From: Hellea sp.
GTDB lineage: Bacteria; Pseudomonadota; Alphaproteobacteria; Caulobacterales; Maricaulaceae
Length of the DNA stretch: 64,000 bases
Direction: 5' to 3'
NCBI GenBank assembly: GCA_020629545.1
Contig: JAHDDC010000010.1
Coordinates: forward strand, 1 to 64,000
This document shows, piece after piece, positions 33,598-44,173 of this stretch. A program made the translations under genes and the position numbers. Under the pieces are notes generated by a model. It was not told the DNA's origin, made no database searches, and saw only the letters and a program-made list of their open reading frames with translations. Numbering within the stretch: position 1 is the first letter of the stretch; each line of letters begins with the position of its first letter.

Positions 33598-36069
33598 TTA
33601 CGTTAATAGCTTCTCGAATAATGGGGCAACATTTTGATAGGCGTAATTTTCGTTGTGGTAAATGACGCCACTGGTTGATGCTTTTTCCCATTTCTTTTCG
33701 TCGGAATAGAGCGCATGACATAATTTTGCAAACTCAGCAGGCTTATTCGCTGCGAAACGAATGTCCTTAAGTCCTTTGGACGCCATGCCTTCAAACGCAA
33801 TATCCGTTCCAACACAAGGCACACCGGCACCGATACTAGAGGCGACTTTTCCTTTTAATCCTGCACCAAATCGGAGAGGCGCTATCGTTAGTCTGAGCCC
33901 TGCTAGAAAATCCTCAAGGTCAGGAATAAACCCATCTATAACCACACTGTCCGACGCAAATTCGTAAAACTCTTTTGGCATATGCGAACCGCAAATGCGT
34001 AATTTCGCATTAGGTAATTTCTTTGAGATAGATGGCCAGATTTCTTTCACCATCCAATGTACGGCATCAACATTAGGGGGATGTCGATAGCCACCTATAA
34101 ACGCGATGTCCTCACGCTTTTCATAACCGCCCCGGCGCTCTGCCTCGTTACGTATTAATGGAATGGTAGATATTTTTGATGCGGGAACATTATGTTCTTT
34201 CGACAGCAGGTCTCGTTCGTGTTCACTGATGACGATGATTTTATTGGCTTTCTCGATATAAGATAATTCCTGCGACTTCATACTCTTCGCCGCTTTCATA
34301 TCAGCCGACTTTCCTGATATTTCTGCCTCACGCATCATCCGTAAAAAATGAAGATCAACAGTATTATAAATGATTTTGGCAGATGGACACTTCTTACGAA
34401 TGATATCAAGATAGTGTTCACACGACTCCGCTCGAGACAAAACCACGTAATCAAACATATCCCCACGCTCTTCAAGCAATGCGTTCATGTTCGTATAAAA
34501 TGGCGCATAAATACATTCAACGCCCATCCGTTCAAGATTCTCGGTCGCTTCACCCCAGTGCGCAAAATTCGACCCCGGCACAAAATGAACGCGATGCCCT
34601 TGGGCACTTAGAATTTTCATCGTGTAAAATGCGTCAACAGAACCAGAATCTTTGTCTGGCTCGGGTGTTACAGCGTCCACATATAATATGTGTGACCGAG
34701 CCATGCGGTCAGATGCAATTTCCGGAGTAGTACCATTGGCCAGGTGAGTACCCAAGGCATCCGCCCATATCCGGCGAAATGTTCCCCGATTAACTTCCTG
34801 GTATTTCTTAGCGCCGGATGTAACATCTGTTCCGGAACTTAGGCCTTCAATATGGATAACCGAAGATGCGGGTTGATATAAAACGCGCTGCCGCATTGAT
34901 CTAACTTTGAAGCAAATATCAGTGTCTTCATAATAGGCTTTTTCAAGTTCAGTATTGAACCCACCTATTTCTTCCCACAGGTCCCGCCTGATCATTAATG
35001 ACGCTCCGGAAACATAATCGACGTCACGGACATAGTTGTATTTTGGATGCTCTGGATTTTGACCACGGCCCCAATTCCATCCCGATGCATCTTCCCAAAT
35101 AATCCCGCCAGCCTCCTGAAGAGATCCGTCGGGGAATATAAGCTTCGACCCAACGATGCCGACATCACCATGTTCTTGGAAGGTACGATAAAGCAACTCC
35201 ATCCAGCCTGGATTGACCAGCGTATCATTATTCAAAAAGATAATGTAATCGCCGCGAGCCAATTTAGCATTCTCATTACAGTTATTCAAAAATCCGAGGT
35301 TCTCAGGATTTCTATTATACCTTAATCCCGGAATGGTTTTCAAAATCGTATGAAATGGATCTGGCGACGTGTCATCTGCCAAAATAACTTCGTAATCGAC
35401 GCTCACATGCTGTTGGCTAATCGATTTAAGACAGGCAATCGTCTGTGATATTTCATTGTAAACCGGAACAATAATAGAGACCACAGGCTTATCGGTTTCC
35501 ACAAAGGAAAACTTGATTTCGGTGTTTTCAATATCGATATCTGAATCAGGTTTGGGAATTCGATTGCTCTCAGGCGCGCCGCCTAACCGGATTGCAACAC
35601 CCGTCATTTTTCTGGCCATACGCAATTTCATCAGTTCAGGGAGCGGCATGGCATGTCTGACATATCGAAGCGTATTATAAGCGGCGCGTTTTGTGGTCGC
35701 GCGAATAGGATGTTTTTCGTAATAGTCGAGTTTGTGCGTCAGATGTGTGTTGACTATGCTCAGATCTTTCTCGACCATCTCCGTACGTTTCGTATTCAGC
35801 CGACTCTTAAGCTCATTTGATTCATGTAGCTTTCTGAATTGCGTATTTTCATTTTCGGCAACGTTAAGTTTTTCTCTGACATCATAGAGCTCTTCGCCCA
35901 TTGATTTGAGTTGAGCTTTGAGTTTCTCAAATTCTGCCTCGATTTTGGCGCTGCGTTCAGACGTTTTGGAAAGCTTCGCCTTGAGTGTACGCAATTCTTT
36001 GATTAATTCTGCTTTGGTCTTTTTGGTCATTGTTAGCCTCGGGCGCCTATTTTGAGGCCCATAATTCAT
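33598..36069 (-). CDS. Two-domain glycosyltransferase (GT2 + GT4-like) with N-terminal coiled coil
   Basis: GT2 'SIIVPVYNEISQTIACLKSI...FLNNDTLVNPGWMELLY'; C-terminal GT4-like 'NVDAVHWMVKEIWPSI...PLRFGAGLKGKVASSIGAGVPCVGTDIAFEGM'. Confidence 0.88.
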   Translation of the reverse strand: MNYGPQNRRPRLTMTKKTKAELIKELRTLKAKLSKTSERSAKIEAEFEKLKAQLKSMGEELYDVREKLNVAENENTQFRKLHESNELKSRLNTKRTEMVEKDLSIVNTHLTHKLDYYEKHPIRATTKRAAYNTLRYVRHAMPLPELMKLRMARKMTGVAIRLGGAPESNRIPKPDSDIDIENTEIKFSFVETDKPVVSIIVPVYNEISQTIACLKSISQQHVSVDYEVILADDTSPDPFHTILKTIPGLRYNRNPENLGFLNNCNENAKLARGDYIIFLNNDTLVNPGWMELLYRTFQEHGDVGIVGSKLIFPDGSLQEAGGIIWEDASGWNWGRGQNPEHPKYNYVRDVDYVSGASLMIRRDLWEEIGGFNTELEKAYYEDTDICFKVRSMRQRVLYQPASSVIHIEGLSSGTDVTSGAKKYQEVNRGTFRRIWADALGTHLANGTTPEIASDRMARSHILYVDAVTPEPDKDSGSVDAFYTMKILSAQGHRVHFVPGSNFAHWGEATENLERMGVECIYAPFYTNMNALLEERGDMFDYVVLSRAESCEHYLDIIRKKCPSAKIIYNTVDLHFLRMMREAEISGKSADMKAAKSMKSQELSYIEKANKIIVISEHERDLLSKEHNVPASKISTIPLIRNEAERRGGYEKREDIAFIGGYRHPPNVDAVHWMVKEIWPSISKKLPNAKLRICGSHMPKEFYEFASDSVVIDGFIPDLEDFLAGLRLTIAPLRFGAGLKGKVASSIGAGVPCVGTDIAFEGMASKGLKDIRFAANKPAEFAKLCHALYSDEKKWEKASTSGVIYHNENYAYQNVAPLFEKLLT

Positions 36070-36802
36070 CTTTTACAAAATGGTATAGCTCCATATCAAG
36101 AGCGTTTAGCTGCATCAAATTTATAAATGTCAGTCGACCAATTTTCTCTTCGAACGTTTTTAACTTCTCATGGACTGTTTTGCCCTTCTTCGTCATCGCA
36201 TTAGCTCGAACATTTAATAACTCAAAATCCGGAAAATGAGGGCGAATAAGTTCTCCAAACTTTATCATAGATTCATCGAATCGTTCTACCAAACCAACGA
36301 CCGGGAGGCTTTTGAGGGCCTCTATAGATCTAGGCCGAAAATGTTGTGGCTCTCTGTTCAACGTATCAACCCGAAAATCCTTGAGCCTAACGGCGTGAAA
36401 ATTGACGACTTGAGTCAACATAGGTGTTGATAGGCGCCACGCGAGATAATGTGCAAAATCACCAGCTTTTGCTGCCTTTGATCCTGGACTATCTGAATCC
36501 TGAACGCGCTCGAACTCATAAGCAGATTGAATGCGCCCAAGCGGATGCCGGAAGAAAAAGATCGGTAAGATCTGAACACCCGGAATTTCGGGCAGACGTA
36601 CCACCGCTGTATGAGAAGAAATCGCCTTCTTTTCTGGATTGTCCAGAATATATTCTGTCATCATTTCAGGCGTTAACTTTTTATTGTTGGGCCCTTCGAT
36701 TTCCGCCCATTCCGAGCCAAAATTGTGCTCAAGAATAGCGTCAACTGATGATCCAGCATTTTTAAATAAATGATAGTGTATGATGACACCACGGTCCGTC
36801 AC
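36047..36802 (-). CDS. Sulfotransferase family protein (probable GTG start)
   Basis: 'IIHYHLFKNAGSSVDAILEHNFG...SSHTAVVRLPEIPGVQILPIFFFRHPLGRIQSAYEFE'; GTG at 36802 preceded by GGGAG; 251 aa, the same length as paralog 43418..44173. Confidence 0.8.
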   Translation of the reverse strand: MTDRGVIIHYHLFKNAGSSVDAILEHNFGSEWAEIEGPNNKKLTPEMMTEYILDNPEKKAISSHTAVVRLPEIPGVQILPIFFFRHPLGRIQSAYEFERVQDSDSPGSKAAKAGDFAHYLAWRLSTPMLTQVVNFHAVRLKDFRVDTLNREPQHFRPRSIEALKSLPVVGLVERFDESMIKFGELIRPHFPDFELLNVRANAMTKKGKTVHEKLKTFEEKIGRLTFINLMQLNALDMELYHFVKDELWASK

Positions 36803-36942
36803 GTCTTGCTCCCAGAATTTCGCCCCTGTAATGAGGGCCAAATATAGGAAATGAACGATATGTAAAGTGCTAGGCTGCATAAGAATTTTATAAGGGGAAT
36901 AAATGGCGCCATATTCACCGGAGAATAGCAAGGAAGACGAAC

Positions 36943-37869
36943 ATGATTGCAAAAGCTCTCGAGACCGAAATTGAAGCGATACTCAATGAATATGGTCCGC
37001 TAACTGGACGGAAATTGGCGGAAAAACTCGGAGACTGCGAGCCTATACTCCTTTGGAAAGCGTGTTACCAGTCAAACAAGTTCAGGGTCATTAACTTCGC
37101 GCGATATTATTTGCGGTACGACGTTACGCGCGAGGATTTGATTCGTCTCAGTCCATCTGTCCTCCGAGACTTTTTATCCTTCACACTGATCTATAAAACA
37201 GGGCAAAGAAGCGATGCAACAGATGAAGCCGCTATCCTTGCCAATAAACACCGCTTAATCAGCCTAAAGAAGCTGAAATTTGCCCGTAACACCCTGCTTT
37301 CACTCTCCCCAGAAAGTTTAGAAATGCTCCATTATAAGTCCTGCTGTTTTATCGCAGGGGATATTTCCTACTTTCTGGCGCATGAAGAACCGCGCATACA
37401 TGCCCCAACCGGTGCGAAATTATATGGCTCGGATATTGATATTATCGTTGTCTATGAGAATGATACAGACCCAGATATCATTCGGCGCGCAGAACAAGAA
37501 GTTCTGACCTATAAGCATCGCTGCATCAAAGACCCGGGAATCGGTCAGGAAATCGATTTTATCTTCAAACCCGTCCAGAAAATGCTCAGCCAGTTCTCTT
37601 ACGCTGACATTCACCAAAAAATTGCCTGCAAGATTCTGTATGAAAGTTTCTTTTTATATGGACGGCTTGATCTCTATGAAAAACTGACAACGGATCTCGA
37701 TTTTTCTGGAACGGTCAGAAAAATCGAAGACGATTTCGCCAAAGCCCTTGCCGGCCGAAAAGCAACGATAAAGAAGATCCTGAAACTCGAACAAGATGAG
37801 CTCGATAAAATGGATAAGAACACTCAAAGCCTGTTCTTCTTCTCCCAAGAGCGTCTCGAGTTTCAGTAG
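36943..37869 (+). CDS. Uncharacterised protein: winged-helix-like N-terminus plus nucleotidyltransferase-fold-like core
   Basis: 'GPLTGRKLAEKLG' wHTH-like; 'LYGSDIDIIVVYEND...EIDFIF' GS-x-DxD...D arrangement. Confidence 0.5.
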   Translation: MIAKALETEIEAILNEYGPLTGRKLAEKLGDCEPILLWKACYQSNKFRVINFARYYLRYDVTREDLIRLSPSVLRDFLSFTLIYKTGQRSDATDEAAILANKHRLISLKKLKFARNTLLSLSPESLEMLHYKSCCFIAGDISYFLAHEEPRIHAPTGAKLYGSDIDIIVVYENDTDPDIIRRAEQEVLTYKHRCIKDPGIGQEIDFIFKPVQKMLSQFSYADIHQKIACKILYESFFLYGRLDLYEKLTTDLDFSGTVRKIEDDFAKALAGRKATIKKILKLEQDELDKMDKNTQSLFFFSQERLEFQ

Positions 37870-38957: not shown

Positions 38958-39003
38958 AATCAGGCCTATGCCAGAGGATTAAATCATTCGGCACCAATCA
39001 GAG

Positions 39004-39015
39004 GGACCATTCCCA
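39004..39015. promoter_or_regulatory. Operator-like palindrome 1 upstream of cysD
   Basis: GGGACCATTCCC. Confidence 0.65.
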
Positions 39016-39093
39016 CAAATCGCATAAAACCCTCACATTTCCTCTTCACAAACCTTTCTTAATCCGCTAATCGGCCTCGAATCTGCTTATCGT

Positions 39094-39105
39094 GGGACGG
39101 TTCCC
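39094..39105. promoter_or_regulatory. Operator-like palindrome 2 upstream of cysD
   Basis: GGGACGGTTCCC. Confidence 0.65.
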
Positions 39106-39108
39106 ATC

Positions 39109-39139
39109 GGATAAATCGCCTCACATGAGGGATTTATCC
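39109..39139 (+). promoter_or_regulatory. Leader hairpin overlapping operator 3
   Basis: GGATAAATC-g-CCTC-ACAT-GAGG-GATTTATCC: 13 bp stem with one bulge, 4-nt loop. Confidence 0.65.
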
Positions 39140-39140
39140 C
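39129..39140. promoter_or_regulatory. Operator-like palindrome 3 upstream of cysD
   Basis: GGGATTTATCCC. Confidence 0.65.
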
Positions 39141-39188
39141 ACAAAGGATCGCCCAGACACTGATAAGCCCCTAAAACGAGGACCGACA

Positions 39189-40292
39189 ATGGATATTCAG
39201 GATTTGGTGACACGGGCGGAGGCCCTGGCGGAGACGAGCGGGCAGTCGCTCTCGACCGTATCGCGGAAAATTTTAAATGACGGCAAGGGCCTGACCCGCC
39301 TTAAGGAGGGCGGACAGTGCACGCTCAAGACTTTTGACAGCGCCATGGCGACCCTCAAGAAACTCGAGGTAGAGGCGGATGTGAACGCCTCGCTCAACCT
39401 GACCCACCTTCAACGTCTGGAAGCCGAGAGCATCCATATTATGCGCGAAGTGGCCGCCCAGTGCGAAAACCCCGTCATGCTTTATTCCGTTGGTAAAGAC
39501 AGTTCGGTTATGTTGCATCTGGCCGAGAAGGCTTTCTTCCCGTCCCGTCCGCCATTTCCGCTTATGCATGTGGACACGACCTGGAAATTCTCTGAGATGA
39601 TTGAGTTTCGTGATCGCCGCGCCAAAGAGGTAGGCATGGAGCTGATTGTCCATATCAACCAAGACGGTGTGCGCGATGGGGTTGGCCCGTTCAGTCACGG
39701 CTCAGCCGTCCACACAGACGTTATGAAAACACAAGGCCTGAAACAGGCGCTGGATAAATACCGCTTTGACGCGGCCTTTGGCGGCGCGCGCCGAGACGAA
39801 GAGAAATCCCGCGCCAAGGAACGGATCTTCTCTTTCCGGAATGAAAACCACCGCTGGGACGCGAAAAACCAGCGCCCTGAGCTTTGGAATATTTACAATA
39901 CACGCGTTCAAAAAGGTCAGAGCATGCGGGTCTTCCCTATGTCTAACTGGACTGAGCTTGATATCTGGCAGTATATTTACAAAGAAAATATTCAGATCCC
40001 ATCGCTGTACCTGTCTAAGAAGCGCCCGGTCGTCGAGCGCGACGGTGTCTTAATCCTGGTCGATGATGACCGCCTGCCGCTAAGAGATGGTGAAACACCG
40101 ATGGAAAAAATGGTCCGGTTTAGAACGCTGGGCTGTTATCCGCTAACCGGCGCTGTCGAAAGCGAAGCCGCCACCCTGCCCGAAGTCATTCAGGAAATGC
40201 TCCTGACCAAAACATCCGAACGTCAAGGCCGGGTCATCGATTCCGATGCCGGAGCCTCAATGGAACAGAAAAAAGAAGAGGGATATTTCTAA
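39189..40292 (+). CDS. cysD: Sulfate adenylyltransferase subunit 2 with N-terminal HTH-like domain
   Basis: Residues ~69-367 are canonical CysD ('[62 protein letters not shown]'); residues 1-65 '[56 protein letters not shown]' are extra. Confidence 0.93.
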
Positions 40293-42202
40293 TGTCACAC
40301 CTCGACTCGCTTATTGCCGAAGATATTATTGCCTATCTGGACGCCCAGGAAAATAAGAGCTTCCTGCGCTTCATTACCTGCGGTTCCGTTGATGACGGTA
40401 AATCAACACTCATTGGCCGCCTGCTTTACGATTCAAAACTGATTTATGAAGATCAACTCGCCGCTATTGAGCGCGATAGCAAGAAGTCAGGTACGCAGGG
40501 CGACAAAGTCGATTTAGCTCTGCTGGTGGATGGTCTGGCTGCCGAGCGCGAACAGGGCATTACCATCGATGTTGCCTATCGTTTCTTCTCGACGGACAAG
40601 CGTAAGTTCATCGTCGCCGACACGCCTGGCCACGAACAATATACCCGCAATATGGCGACAGGCGCATCAACGGCTGATGTAGCTATATTGCTGATCGATT
40701 GCCGATACGGCGTTCAGGTTCAAACCCGCCGCCACGCCTTTATCGCCTCGCTTCTGGGGATTAAGCACGTCGTTTGTGCGATCAATAAAATGGATCTCGT
40801 CGATTTTGACCAAAAAGTCTTTAACGACATCGAATATGAATTCCGTGAGTTTTCCAAAGACATGGGATTCCAGGAAATCACTTGTATTCCGATGTCCGCT
40901 TTGGACGGGGATAATGTCACCACATCGTCGGAACGCGCATCATGGTATAAAGGCCCAGCGCTTTTGGAATATCTCGAAGATGTCGACGTTGATAGCGCCG
41001 ATCTGGAACGTCCCTTCCGCCTGCCCGTTCAGTGGGTCAACCGCCCAAATCTGGATTTCCGCGGATTTTCCGGAACAGTTGCTTCTGGCATCATCGAAGT
41101 CGGCGACGAGATTATGGTCGTTCCGTCGGGCAAACGCTCCACGGTCAAGTCCATTGTGACCTATGACGGCGAGCTCGACAAAGCCCGCGAAGATATGGCC
41201 ATCACCCTGACCCTAAAGGATGAGATTGACATTTCGCGCGGAGACGTGATTTGCAAAACTGATAGCCCGTGTGAACAAGCCGATCAATTCCAGGCTCATA
41301 TTCTTTGGATGACCGAGAAGGAACTGTTCCCGGGCCGTCAATATCTGGTCAAGACATCCAACAAAACCGTTCCGGCCAGTATCACCAATATCAAGCACCG
41401 TGTTGATGTGAACGATCTATCGGAAACGGCGGTCAAGACTCTCGGCCTGAACGAAATCGGTGTGTGTACCATTCAAACCGGCGCGCCTGTCGCCTTTGAT
41501 GCCTATAAAGATAACCGCAATACTGGGAACTTTATCGTCATCGACAAAGCCACCAATGAAACCGTTGGGGTTGGCATGCTCGATTACGCGCTACGCCGAG
41601 CCAAGAATGTGCACTGGCAGGATCTCGACGTCTCCAAAAAAGTTCGCGCCGCCCAGAAAAACCAGAAGCCAGTCATGCTTTGGTTCACCGGGCTTTCTGG
41701 CTCTGGTAAATCGACGATTGCCAATCTGGTTGAAAAGCGTCTGCTCGATCTCGGGCGTCATACTTATACGCTGGACGGCGATAATGTTCGTCACGGCCTG
41801 AATAATGATCTGGGCTTCACGAAGGCCGACAGGATTGAAAATATCCGCCGGATTGCCGAAGTCGGAAAGCTGATGGTCGATGCTGGCTTGATCACCTTGA
41901 CATCCTTTATCAGCCCTTATGCGCAGGAACGCCGTATGGCGCGCGACCTTCAAGGCGAGGGTGAATTTATCGAGATTTTCGTTAACACGCCGCTCGAAGT
42001 CGCCGAAAAGCGCGACGTCAAAGGTCTTTATGCCAAGGCCCGTGCCGGAGAGATCAAAAACTTCACCGGGATTGATAGCGAATATCAGGAACCGGAAAAT
42101 GCTGAGATCACAATCAACACGGTTGATATGACCGCGGACGAAGCCGCTGAGCAGATCGTGACCTATCTGACCGATCACGGCTATCTGGAAGGCGAAGCTT
42201 AA
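40292..42202 (+). CDS. cysNC: Bifunctional sulfate adenylyltransferase subunit 1 / adenylylsulfate kinase
   Basis: GTPase '[19 protein letters not shown]', '[17 protein letters not shown]'; C-terminal APS kinase '[36 protein letters not shown]'. Confidence 0.97.
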
Positions 42203-42204
42203 AT

Positions 42205-43152
42205 ATGGCCGCCTTCGATGTCTTTAATGGTGACGCTGACGGCGTCATCTCATTGGTCCAAATGCGTCGCGCGGATCCGCGCCCGGAGGCCAAATTAATC
42301 ACGGGCCGAAAGCGCGACATCAATCTTTTGAAGCGCGTAAAAACCAAAGCCGGTGATCAGGTTACTGTACTAGACATTTCTTTGCGCTCAAATCTTGATG
42401 ACCTGAACCGGATCCTGACATCCGGCGCGTCTGTATTTTACGCCGATCATCACAATGCGGACGGACAGCCAGAGCATGACAATCTGCAAGCCTGTATCGA
42501 TGTTTCGCCGGAAGTTTGCACAGCTCTGATCATCGATGATTGTCTTGAAGGCGCTTATAGAGCCTGGGCCGTCACAGCCGCTTTTGGCGATAATTTCCCC
42601 AAAATAGCCAAGGCCAAAGCCGCCGGTTTGGACCTTCCGCTGGAGCAGCTGGAGCGGCTCGGCATGCTCGTCAACTATAATGGTTACGGCGCGGACACCT
42701 CTGACCTGCACTTTCACCCAGCTGATCTTTACAAAGCGCTCGCGCCTTTTGATACGCCCATGGAATTCCTGGAAGGCAACAAAGAAGTCTACCAAAAACT
42801 CGATGATGGTTATGAATCTGACCTGAGCGCGGCGAAGTCTGCAAAAGTTTTAGATGAAAGCGTAAAAGGTCTCGTGATTGAGCTCGCTGATGATGCCAGT
42901 TCGCGCCGTATATCTGGCGTCTATGGCAATCAACTCGCACAAGAAAATCCGGGTCGCGCGCATGCCGTTCTGACACGCACTGGTGAGAATTATCTCGTTT
43001 CCGTCCGCGCGCCGCTATCCAACCGGACCGGCGCCGACAAGTTATGTCTGCAATTTGAAACAGGCGGTGGCCGCGCCGCAGCCGCCGGCATCAACGTCTT
43101 ACCTGAGCGCGATGTAGACAGATTTATCGACGCCTTTATCGGCGCATTTTAG
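42205..43152 (+). CDS. DHH-family phosphoesterase
   Basis: 'DVFNGDADGVISLVQMRRADP', 'YADHHNAD', C-terminal 'FETGGGRAAAAGINVLP' (DHHA1-like). Confidence 0.8.
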   Translation: MAAFDVFNGDADGVISLVQMRRADPRPEAKLITGRKRDINLLKRVKTKAGDQVTVLDISLRSNLDDLNRILTSGASVFYADHHNADGQPEHDNLQACIDVSPEVCTALIIDDCLEGAYRAWAVTAAFGDNFPKIAKAKAAGLDLPLEQLERLGMLVNYNGYGADTSDLHFHPADLYKALAPFDTPMEFLEGNKEVYQKLDDGYESDLSAAKSAKVLDESVKGLVIELADDASSRRISGVYGNQLAQENPGRAHAVLTRTGENYLVSVRAPLSNRTGADKLCLQFETGGGRAAAAGINVLPERDVDRFIDAFIGAF

Positions 43153-43244: not shown

Positions 43245-43421
43245 ATGAAGAAATCTCAGCTAGTTGTTTTAAGCTTGATCTATCTGGCTATCGTTATAAC
43301 GGGGCTATTCTTTGCTTTTAAGGTTTTTATGACAGGAATCGAAGAAGGCGTATCTGGTGTGGAGGATGCTGTCGAAGCCGAAAGTCAGATGGAATTAAAT
43401 TCTGACGACGCAGAGCCTTAA
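43245..43421 (+). CDS. Small single-TM protein (58 aa), not in supplied ORF track
   Basis: ATG after GTGAGGG; translation MKKSQLVVLSLIYLAIVITGLFFAFKVFMTGIEEGVSGVEDAVEAESQMELNSDDAEP. Confidence 0.55.
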   Translation: MKKSQLVVLSLIYLAIVITGLFFAFKVFMTGIEEGVSGVEDAVEAESQMELNSDDAEP

Positions 43422-44173
43422 GTTAGCCCATACCATGATCGAACAATGTCGTAGATTTTGAGATCCACGGCATTTTTATCGCAATATTTCTGGAATAACT
43501 CTTCCCCTATATCCGCGCGTATCACGGCAATCCGGTCCTCTGTCGAAATGTTGAGATCTGAGTTCACATTATCCCTCTGGTCCGAAACTTTCAGTTCCAG
43601 CCCATACCGAGAAACCTGCTTGGCCAGCATTTGAAGCGATAGCTCGAACTTCTCAACAAATCCGATAAACGGCAAACGATTTAGCGCTTCCAATGCCAAA
43701 GCTTCCATGTCGTCTTTTTCCGTTACTCGGCCCCGTTCTGGGCGCAATAAATGCGTCAGTCGGTTAGCCTGAAAGTTTCGGATACTGGAATCAAGCGGTC
43801 GCCGGATACGCCAGCGAATATAATCGCCAAAGTCAACCTTCTTAGCCATGATTGCGCCGGGTGTCTGAGCGTCCTGATTGACCTCATAACGATAGCCCGA
43901 ATAAAGCCTGATCAGAGGATGCCGGATAAACATAACGGGAATAATGTTTACATCCTCAATATCCGGCATCGGCAATCGCGCCGTATGAGAAGAATACGCC
44001 CGCATATCCGTGGTGTCCCGGATCCAGTTTTCGATTTCATCATAGGGAAGCCGCTTACGCGTAAAGCGAAACTCTCTCTCCTCCCAGCGTCCAGGAAAAC
44101 TTTCCCTCAGGACACTGTCAAACGAGCTGCCAGCGTTTTTGAATAGGTGAAGATGAAATATAACGTGCCGCAT
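43418..44173 (-). CDS. Sulfotransferase family protein
   Basis: 'VIFHLHLFKNAGSSFDSVLRESFPGRW...SSHTARLPMPDIEDVNIIPVMFIRHPLIRLYSGYRYE'. Confidence 0.8.
   Translation of the reverse strand: MRHVIFHLHLFKNAGSSFDSVLRESFPGRWEEREFRFTRKRLPYDEIENWIRDTTDMRAYSSHTARLPMPDIEDVNIIPVMFIRHPLIRLYSGYRYEVNQDAQTPGAIMAKKVDFGDYIRWRIRRPLDSSIRNFQANRLTHLLRPERGRVTEKDDMEALALEALNRLPFIGFVEKFELSLQMLAKQVSRYGLELKVSDQRDNVNSDLNISTEDRIAVIRADIGEELFQKYCDKNAVDLKIYDIVRSWYGLT

Follow-up and report, generated by a model that had tools for sequence, protein, structure and literature searches.

Trigger enzymes, in which an intact enzyme domain and a DNA-binding domain share one chain, are few and have each been discovered singly. NadR joins an N-terminal lambda-like helix-turn-helix (HTH) to an NMN adenylyltransferase and a kinase, and PutA contacts DNA through a ribbon-helix-helix domain. 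Five trigger enzymes are listed for Escherichia coli K-12, and the same source lists NadR as a trigger enzyme and gives PutA's own intergenic region as its sole E. coli target (PMC8249747). In the biotin ligase BirA, it is the adenylate product that causes the protein to dimerise and bind DNA, and biotin ligases without an HTH exist beside the HTH-bearing BirA (PMC4016012). Closer to sulfur metabolism, transcriptional activity is reported for the PAPS reductase of the fungus Tuber melanosporum (PMC4848566).

Here we describe a computational analysis of a 64,000-nucleotide stretch of a Hellea sp. contig (JAHDDC010000010.1; hereafter the window), in which CysD, the small subunit of sulfate adenylyltransferase, carries an N-terminal HTH-like domain (HTH-CysD). 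Like BirA, which represses its own pathway, this protein has an N-terminal HTH on an adenylate-forming enzyme and coexists with HTH-less enzymes. By contrast, BirA is a biotin ligase with a winged HTH that represses bio genes, whereas HTH-CysD combines a lambda/XRE-like HTH with CysD and has a palindrome ahead of its own gene; only CysD/PAPS-reductase families match its enzyme part, and no biotin ligase catalytic domain was found there. PutA would be similar as a single-target autoregulatory trigger enzyme, if HTH-CysD regulates itself as we propose, but is an unrelated enzyme, a proline dehydrogenase and repressor of proline catabolism. NadR likewise carries a lambda-like HTH at the N-terminus of an enzyme that transfers nucleotides, and differs in serving NAD genes at multiple targets. 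The Tuber PAPS reductase is another enzyme of sulfur assimilation for which a role in transcription is proposed, but it is fungal and a different enzyme (PMC4848566). In the literature searched, mostly outside subscription journals, no earlier description of a CysD with a DNA-binding domain was found.

The open reading frame at 39189-40292 encodes 367 residues, comprising a complete CysD and about 66-70 additional N-terminal residues (Table 1). NCBIfam TIGR02039 (CysD) matches it at 506 bits against a cut-off of 396.6, over model positions 1-294, and begins only at residue 74, so that some 66-70 residues are surplus to CysD; across the NCBIfam CysD models the match sets in at residues 62-74, and the closest CysDs lacking the extension align from about residue 70. 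The top PDB match of the CysD part, 1zun_A (Pseudomonas syringae CysD, 69% identity), is without the N-terminal domain, and we know of no described CysD that has one. The family match and conserved residues indicate that the enzyme domain is intact, and, as in other CysD/CysNC ATP sulfurylases, the complete CysD is followed by its CysNC partner. These results bear out the initial annotation, which had read an uninterrupted frame, with the sequence and coordinates of extension and CysD as found here, and had put the excess over canonical CysD at about 65 residues, in agreement with the TIGR02039 onset.

Table 1 Features of the HTH-CysD operon and its upstream region in the window
Feature	Coordinates	Strand	Basis
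Operator-like palindrome 1, GAGGGA-ccat-TCCCAC	39001..39016	.	One mismatch; -188 from ATG
Operator-like palindrome 2, GTGGGA-cggt-TCCCAT	39092..39107	.	One mismatch; -97
Operator-like palindrome 3, GAGGGA-ttta-TCCCAC	39127..39142	.	One mismatch; -62; PWM score 22.5
Shine-Dalgarno-like GAGGA	39178..39182	+	Sequence; 6 nt 5' of ATG 39189
Predicted N-terminal HTH domain, residues 1-66 of HTH-CysD	39189..39386	+	phrog_7669 E 3.7e-9; AF2 pLDDT 93.9; kept in 33 loci
CysD, sulfate adenylyltransferase small subunit, complete, catalytic motifs intact	39396..40292	+	TIGR02039 506 bits; 1zun_A
CysNC, CysN GTPase + APS kinase fusion	40292..42202	+	NF004035 1051 bits; start overlaps cysD stop
DHH/DHHA1-type phosphoesterase (putative), third gene of the operon	42205..43152	+	Pfam DHHA1 4e-4, weak

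A fusion of this kind could arise as an artefact, either from a sequencing indel joining two genes, which the initial annotation had named as a possible refutation, or from misplacing a start that really lies at ATG 39345, and the assembly of the window's genome is indeed fragmented (155 contigs, 7.5% contamination). Yet the same frame recurs in dozens of independent assemblies and in the isolates H. balneolensis DSM 19091 (L008), R. antarcticum DSM 21748 (L019) and A. arctica KCTC 32513 (L030), and the full fusion is read through in 33 of 80 loci of genome contigs, with tblastn matches starting at residues 1-6, which rules out a joining indel. The start at ATG 39189, favoured from the outset for its preceding GAGGA, is upheld: M1 and the residues that follow can be aligned across 34 loci, whereas Met53, encoded by ATG 39345, is not kept among them, and the later start was rejected on that ground. 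Across 34 sequences M1, T23, R26, K27, N30-K33, R37, L38, G41, G42 and T48 are invariant, and within-genus substitutions in the extension fall mostly at third codon positions (14/7/33 for the window against L001, 6/5/29 against L014). An artefact is thus left with a negligible chance and, judged by this pattern of conservation, the extension is a real, translated and conserved domain.

No Pfam or NCBIfam model matches the extension (residues 1-72). The sole profile that covers it is PHROG phrog_7669, of unknown function (E 3.7e-9, profile positions 9-62 of 105), whose members are stand-alone proteins whereas the window's copy is fused to CysD. A profile search of PDB sequences found no relative, and the extension had no match among INPHARED phage records and no confirmed match among IMG/VR viral contigs; a recent phage gene as its origin was rejected accordingly. 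A stand-alone relative of the HTH, used as query, gave one weak match. By AlphaFold2, the extension alone is predicted with high confidence (pLDDT 93.9, pTM 0.80) as four helices (residues 3-17, 21-29, 34-39 and 46-69); in the full-length protein it keeps a pLDDT of about 81-90, and the remainder matches 1zun_A. Nearly all of the top 50 Foldseek matches in the PDB are of the lambda-repressor/XRE type, including 434 repressor, HipB, ClgR, C.Esp1396I, SinR and DdrO, each of them weak (E 0.8 or worse, TM-score 0.45-0.63). We read the predicted structure as a divergent member of this fold, which would place a DNA-binding domain in the same chain as the enzyme on the strength of a four-helix arrangement whose nearest, individually weak neighbours are XRE-type.

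The initial annotation had likened the segment to small alphaproteobacterial HTH proteins and had proposed structure prediction and an HMM search of residues 1-65. The likeness holds, in that the domain is conserved and HTH-type and has stand-alone relatives; the prediction gave an HTH-like four-helix fold (pLDDT 93.9), and the profile search yielded phrog_7669 but no HTH family of Pfam or NCBIfam. Its LacI-like TVSR motif probably forms the first helix of the HTH; by analogy with XRE proteins, and from the predicted helix boundaries, the recognition helix would instead be the one that follows, GKGLTRLKE.

The palindromes that the initial annotation had seen just upstream of ATG 39189 proved to be three copies of GTGGGA-N4-TCCCAC with one mismatch each, none of which overlaps the Shine-Dalgarno element; a scan of the window found no sigma-70 promoter consensus. 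A similar palindrome stands upstream in all 33 fused loci first examined as well as in the window, with the consensus cGTGGGA-N4-TCCCACg and half-site centres 10 bp apart. A position weight matrix (PWM) trained on sites from the window's family (f1) and applied to 21 fusions of family f5, outside the training set, found strong sites in 17 of them, with 0-1 of 500 shuffles scoring as well, and in none of 12 unfused cysD genes of the two families. Over 100 distinct CysDs, the palindrome accompanies 62 of the 66 fused and none of the 34 unfused sequences, against 1.4% of random windows. Three of the four fused exceptions form a single f5 clade (L127, L129 and L130), and the remaining one, L121, has a weak site with a score of 10.4. 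Members of that clade carry a variant HTH (GGGMTEKT), and their TCCCAC half-sites do not form a palindrome but are repeated in the same orientation at a distance of 32-33 bp.

Exact copies of the palindrome were counted in 118 genomes. The 29 fused genomes that have any contain 32, all of them immediately upstream of HTH-cysD; genomes without the domain contain two copies (in 2 of 72). With one mismatch allowed, seven fused genomes have few further sites away from HTH-cysD; seven of these were read in their context, and each falls within an open reading frame. A wider sulfur regulon was rejected for these reasons, and the confinement of the copies to HTH-cysD makes the palindrome look like a dedicated autoregulatory operator.

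The initial annotation had also called for a search for the HTH-CysD architecture in relatives. In the window's family the domain is present in 46 of 118 genomes, 45 times as the CysD fusion and once on an NAD synthetase (G029), and HTH-CysD occurs in at least three other families (f5, f95 and f127). On a tree of the CysD core the fused sequences fall mainly into two groups, one of f1 and one of f5, with unfused f5 CysDs adjoining the f1 group; the best tree requires seven changes between the fused and unfused states. Two unfused CysDs (L031 and L035) are nested within the f1 group and have neither HTH nor palindrome. Independent fused/unfused pairs, two on well-supported branches and seven on the best tree, are all concordant but not significant alone, since a phylogenetically corrected test with only two supported pairs is powerless by itself. 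L031 belongs to a second CysD-CysNC of the Hellea MAG SS_bin_43, unfused, without the palindrome and on a short contig, the fusion copy of that MAG being L001; this second CysD is either a paralogue or contamination.

The gene order cysD-cysNC-DHH is kept in most fused f1 relatives, the DHH gene following cysNC in most f1 fused loci at 46-84% identity. The DHH/DHHA1 protein could be a pAp phosphatase (NrnA-like), clearing the by-product of PAPS use. Weak Sulfotransfer_2 matches (36047-36952 and 43418-44173, minus strand) flank this PAPS-making operon, beside large glycosyltransferases; a sulfated polysaccharide locus is possible.

Outside CysD, distant relatives of the HTH are either stand-alone proteins of about 55-110 aa or fused to other enzymes, and among 299 Pseudomonadota genomes all matches to a wider profile of the domain are alphaproteobacterial. 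Of 30 such carriers, 13 have NNNGGA-N4-TCCNNN in the roughly 150 bp upstream, where 0.18 would be expected, under a rule refined after examples had been seen (an earlier version, with the core off by one base, gave 12 of 30 against 1.3); the same rule with gaps of 2, 3 or 6 finds none, and with a gap of 5, one. Stand-alone HTHs of family f17 (55-75 aa; L241, L244, L246, L248, L249 and L182) have TAGGA-N4-TCCTA 45-92 bp upstream, which differs from the CysD-type TGGGA-N4-TCCCA by one base per half-site with equal geometry. This shared geometry indicates that the palindrome follows the HTH, not sulfur genes.

Among the fused forms, the HTH of G029 (L139:2945-5302) precedes a full-length glutamine-dependent NAD synthetase (1040 bits), and AAGGGA-tttg-TCCCTT lies immediately before the start of the HTH. 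A protein of 450-500 aa that we read as methyltransferase-like carries the HTH in L132, L133, L134, L135, L156-L158, L232-L240, L251 and L252; for L132 and L135 no Pfam or NCBIfam family was found. Its genes adjoin metK and sahH (L135) or MetE-like genes (L132, L133), and L158 and L233 have a perfect GTGGGAAATATCCCAC upstream. The HTH also precedes a class II fumarase (L162:1474-2970, 692 bits, one genome), where a doubtful palindrome overlaps the start, and an AMP nucleosidase (L176:1299-2972, 610 bits, one genome), where there is none. Sought in relatives, HTH-NadE and HTH-FumC were single cases in the samples, the FumC carrier's family being a single genome. On balance we lean slightly towards an uncatalogued alphaproteobacterial HTH family, often preceded in its stand-alone form by its own NNNGGA-N4-TCCNNN, that was grafted onto the N-termini of CysD, NAD synthetase, the methyltransferase-like protein near metK and sahH, fumarase and AMP nucleosidase, the palindrome accompanying it in several cases, and gave rise to autoregulatory trigger enzymes.

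The conserved HTH domain and its almost perfect co-occurrence with the palindrome make self-binding by far the best reading. With good confidence, we propose that HTH-CysD is an autoregulatory trigger enzyme, one that would bind the palindrome in front of its own gene and adjust transcription of cysD-cysNC-DHH, probably as a repressor. Its C-terminal part would be a working sulfate adenylyltransferase subunit, while the N-terminal lambda-repressor-like HTH, as a dimer or pair, would bind cGTGGGA-N4-TCCCACg in its own promoter or leader, the half-sites lying one helical turn apart, as suits an HTH dimer on one face of the DNA, and would tune transcription to demand. In fused loci a site is commonly found between -16 and -37 relative to the ATG, and there is often another some 55-130 bp further upstream; sites over the start region plus a second upstream suggest repression, possibly with DNA looping across the promoter. 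The signal would most likely be the state of CysD itself, either free of CysNC or bound to APS or ATP when sulfate activation exceeds demand; by analogy with the adenylate-driven binding of BirA, bound APS or absent CysNC are the first candidates. HTH-CysD would thus work like trigger enzymes of the BirA and PutA type, with a different enzyme, operator and (uncatalogued) HTH family.

Co-occurrence cannot by itself identify the binder, and sulfate genes often have dedicated regulators, CysB for example, so that a separate sulfur regulator might own the palindromes while the HTH of CysD does another job, such as oligomerisation or binding elsewhere. We consider this improbable, because in 29 fused genomes the exact palindromes stand at HTH-cysD alone, cysDs of these families that have no fusion have no such site either, and the HTH relatives that stand alone or sit on NadE or the methyltransferase-like protein share the geometry although they are not sulfate-activation genes. 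Still less credible is an mRNA hairpin that controls translation near the start, with the HTH irrelevant or RNA-binding: many sites do cover the ribosome-binding region at -16 to -37, but many others lie 90-190 bp upstream, and the arms are kept as sequence and not merely as pairing, GGG/CCC being nearly invariant over 52 sites whereas one-sided changes often disrupt the outer pair (GAGGGA..TCCCAC; GTGGGA..TCCCAA).

A larger share of our doubt concerns what binding would do. HTH-CysD might activate, or might autoregulate constitutively without sensing a metabolite (homeostatic autorepression), given that the operators flank candidate promoters, that TTGAC lies between two palindromes in several fused loci, and that computation gives no pointer to an effector. 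We hold this somewhat unlikely, since many loci have sites that cover the start region, which favours repression, and known enzyme-fused DNA-binding domains respond to ligand (PMC8249747, PMC4016012).

As an autoregulatory trigger enzyme, HTH-CysD would be a first-step assimilation enzyme with its own probable repressor and an operator read straight from comparative genomics. Because those genomes have this operator at no other place, cultured strains would allow tests of binding and sensing together. Should the wider pattern prove true, a single small HTH module would have made several unrelated enzymes into sensors for the pathways they serve, and new regulators would have a simple route by which to evolve; for these marine alphaproteobacteria, HTH-CysD suggests how sulfate activation is controlled.
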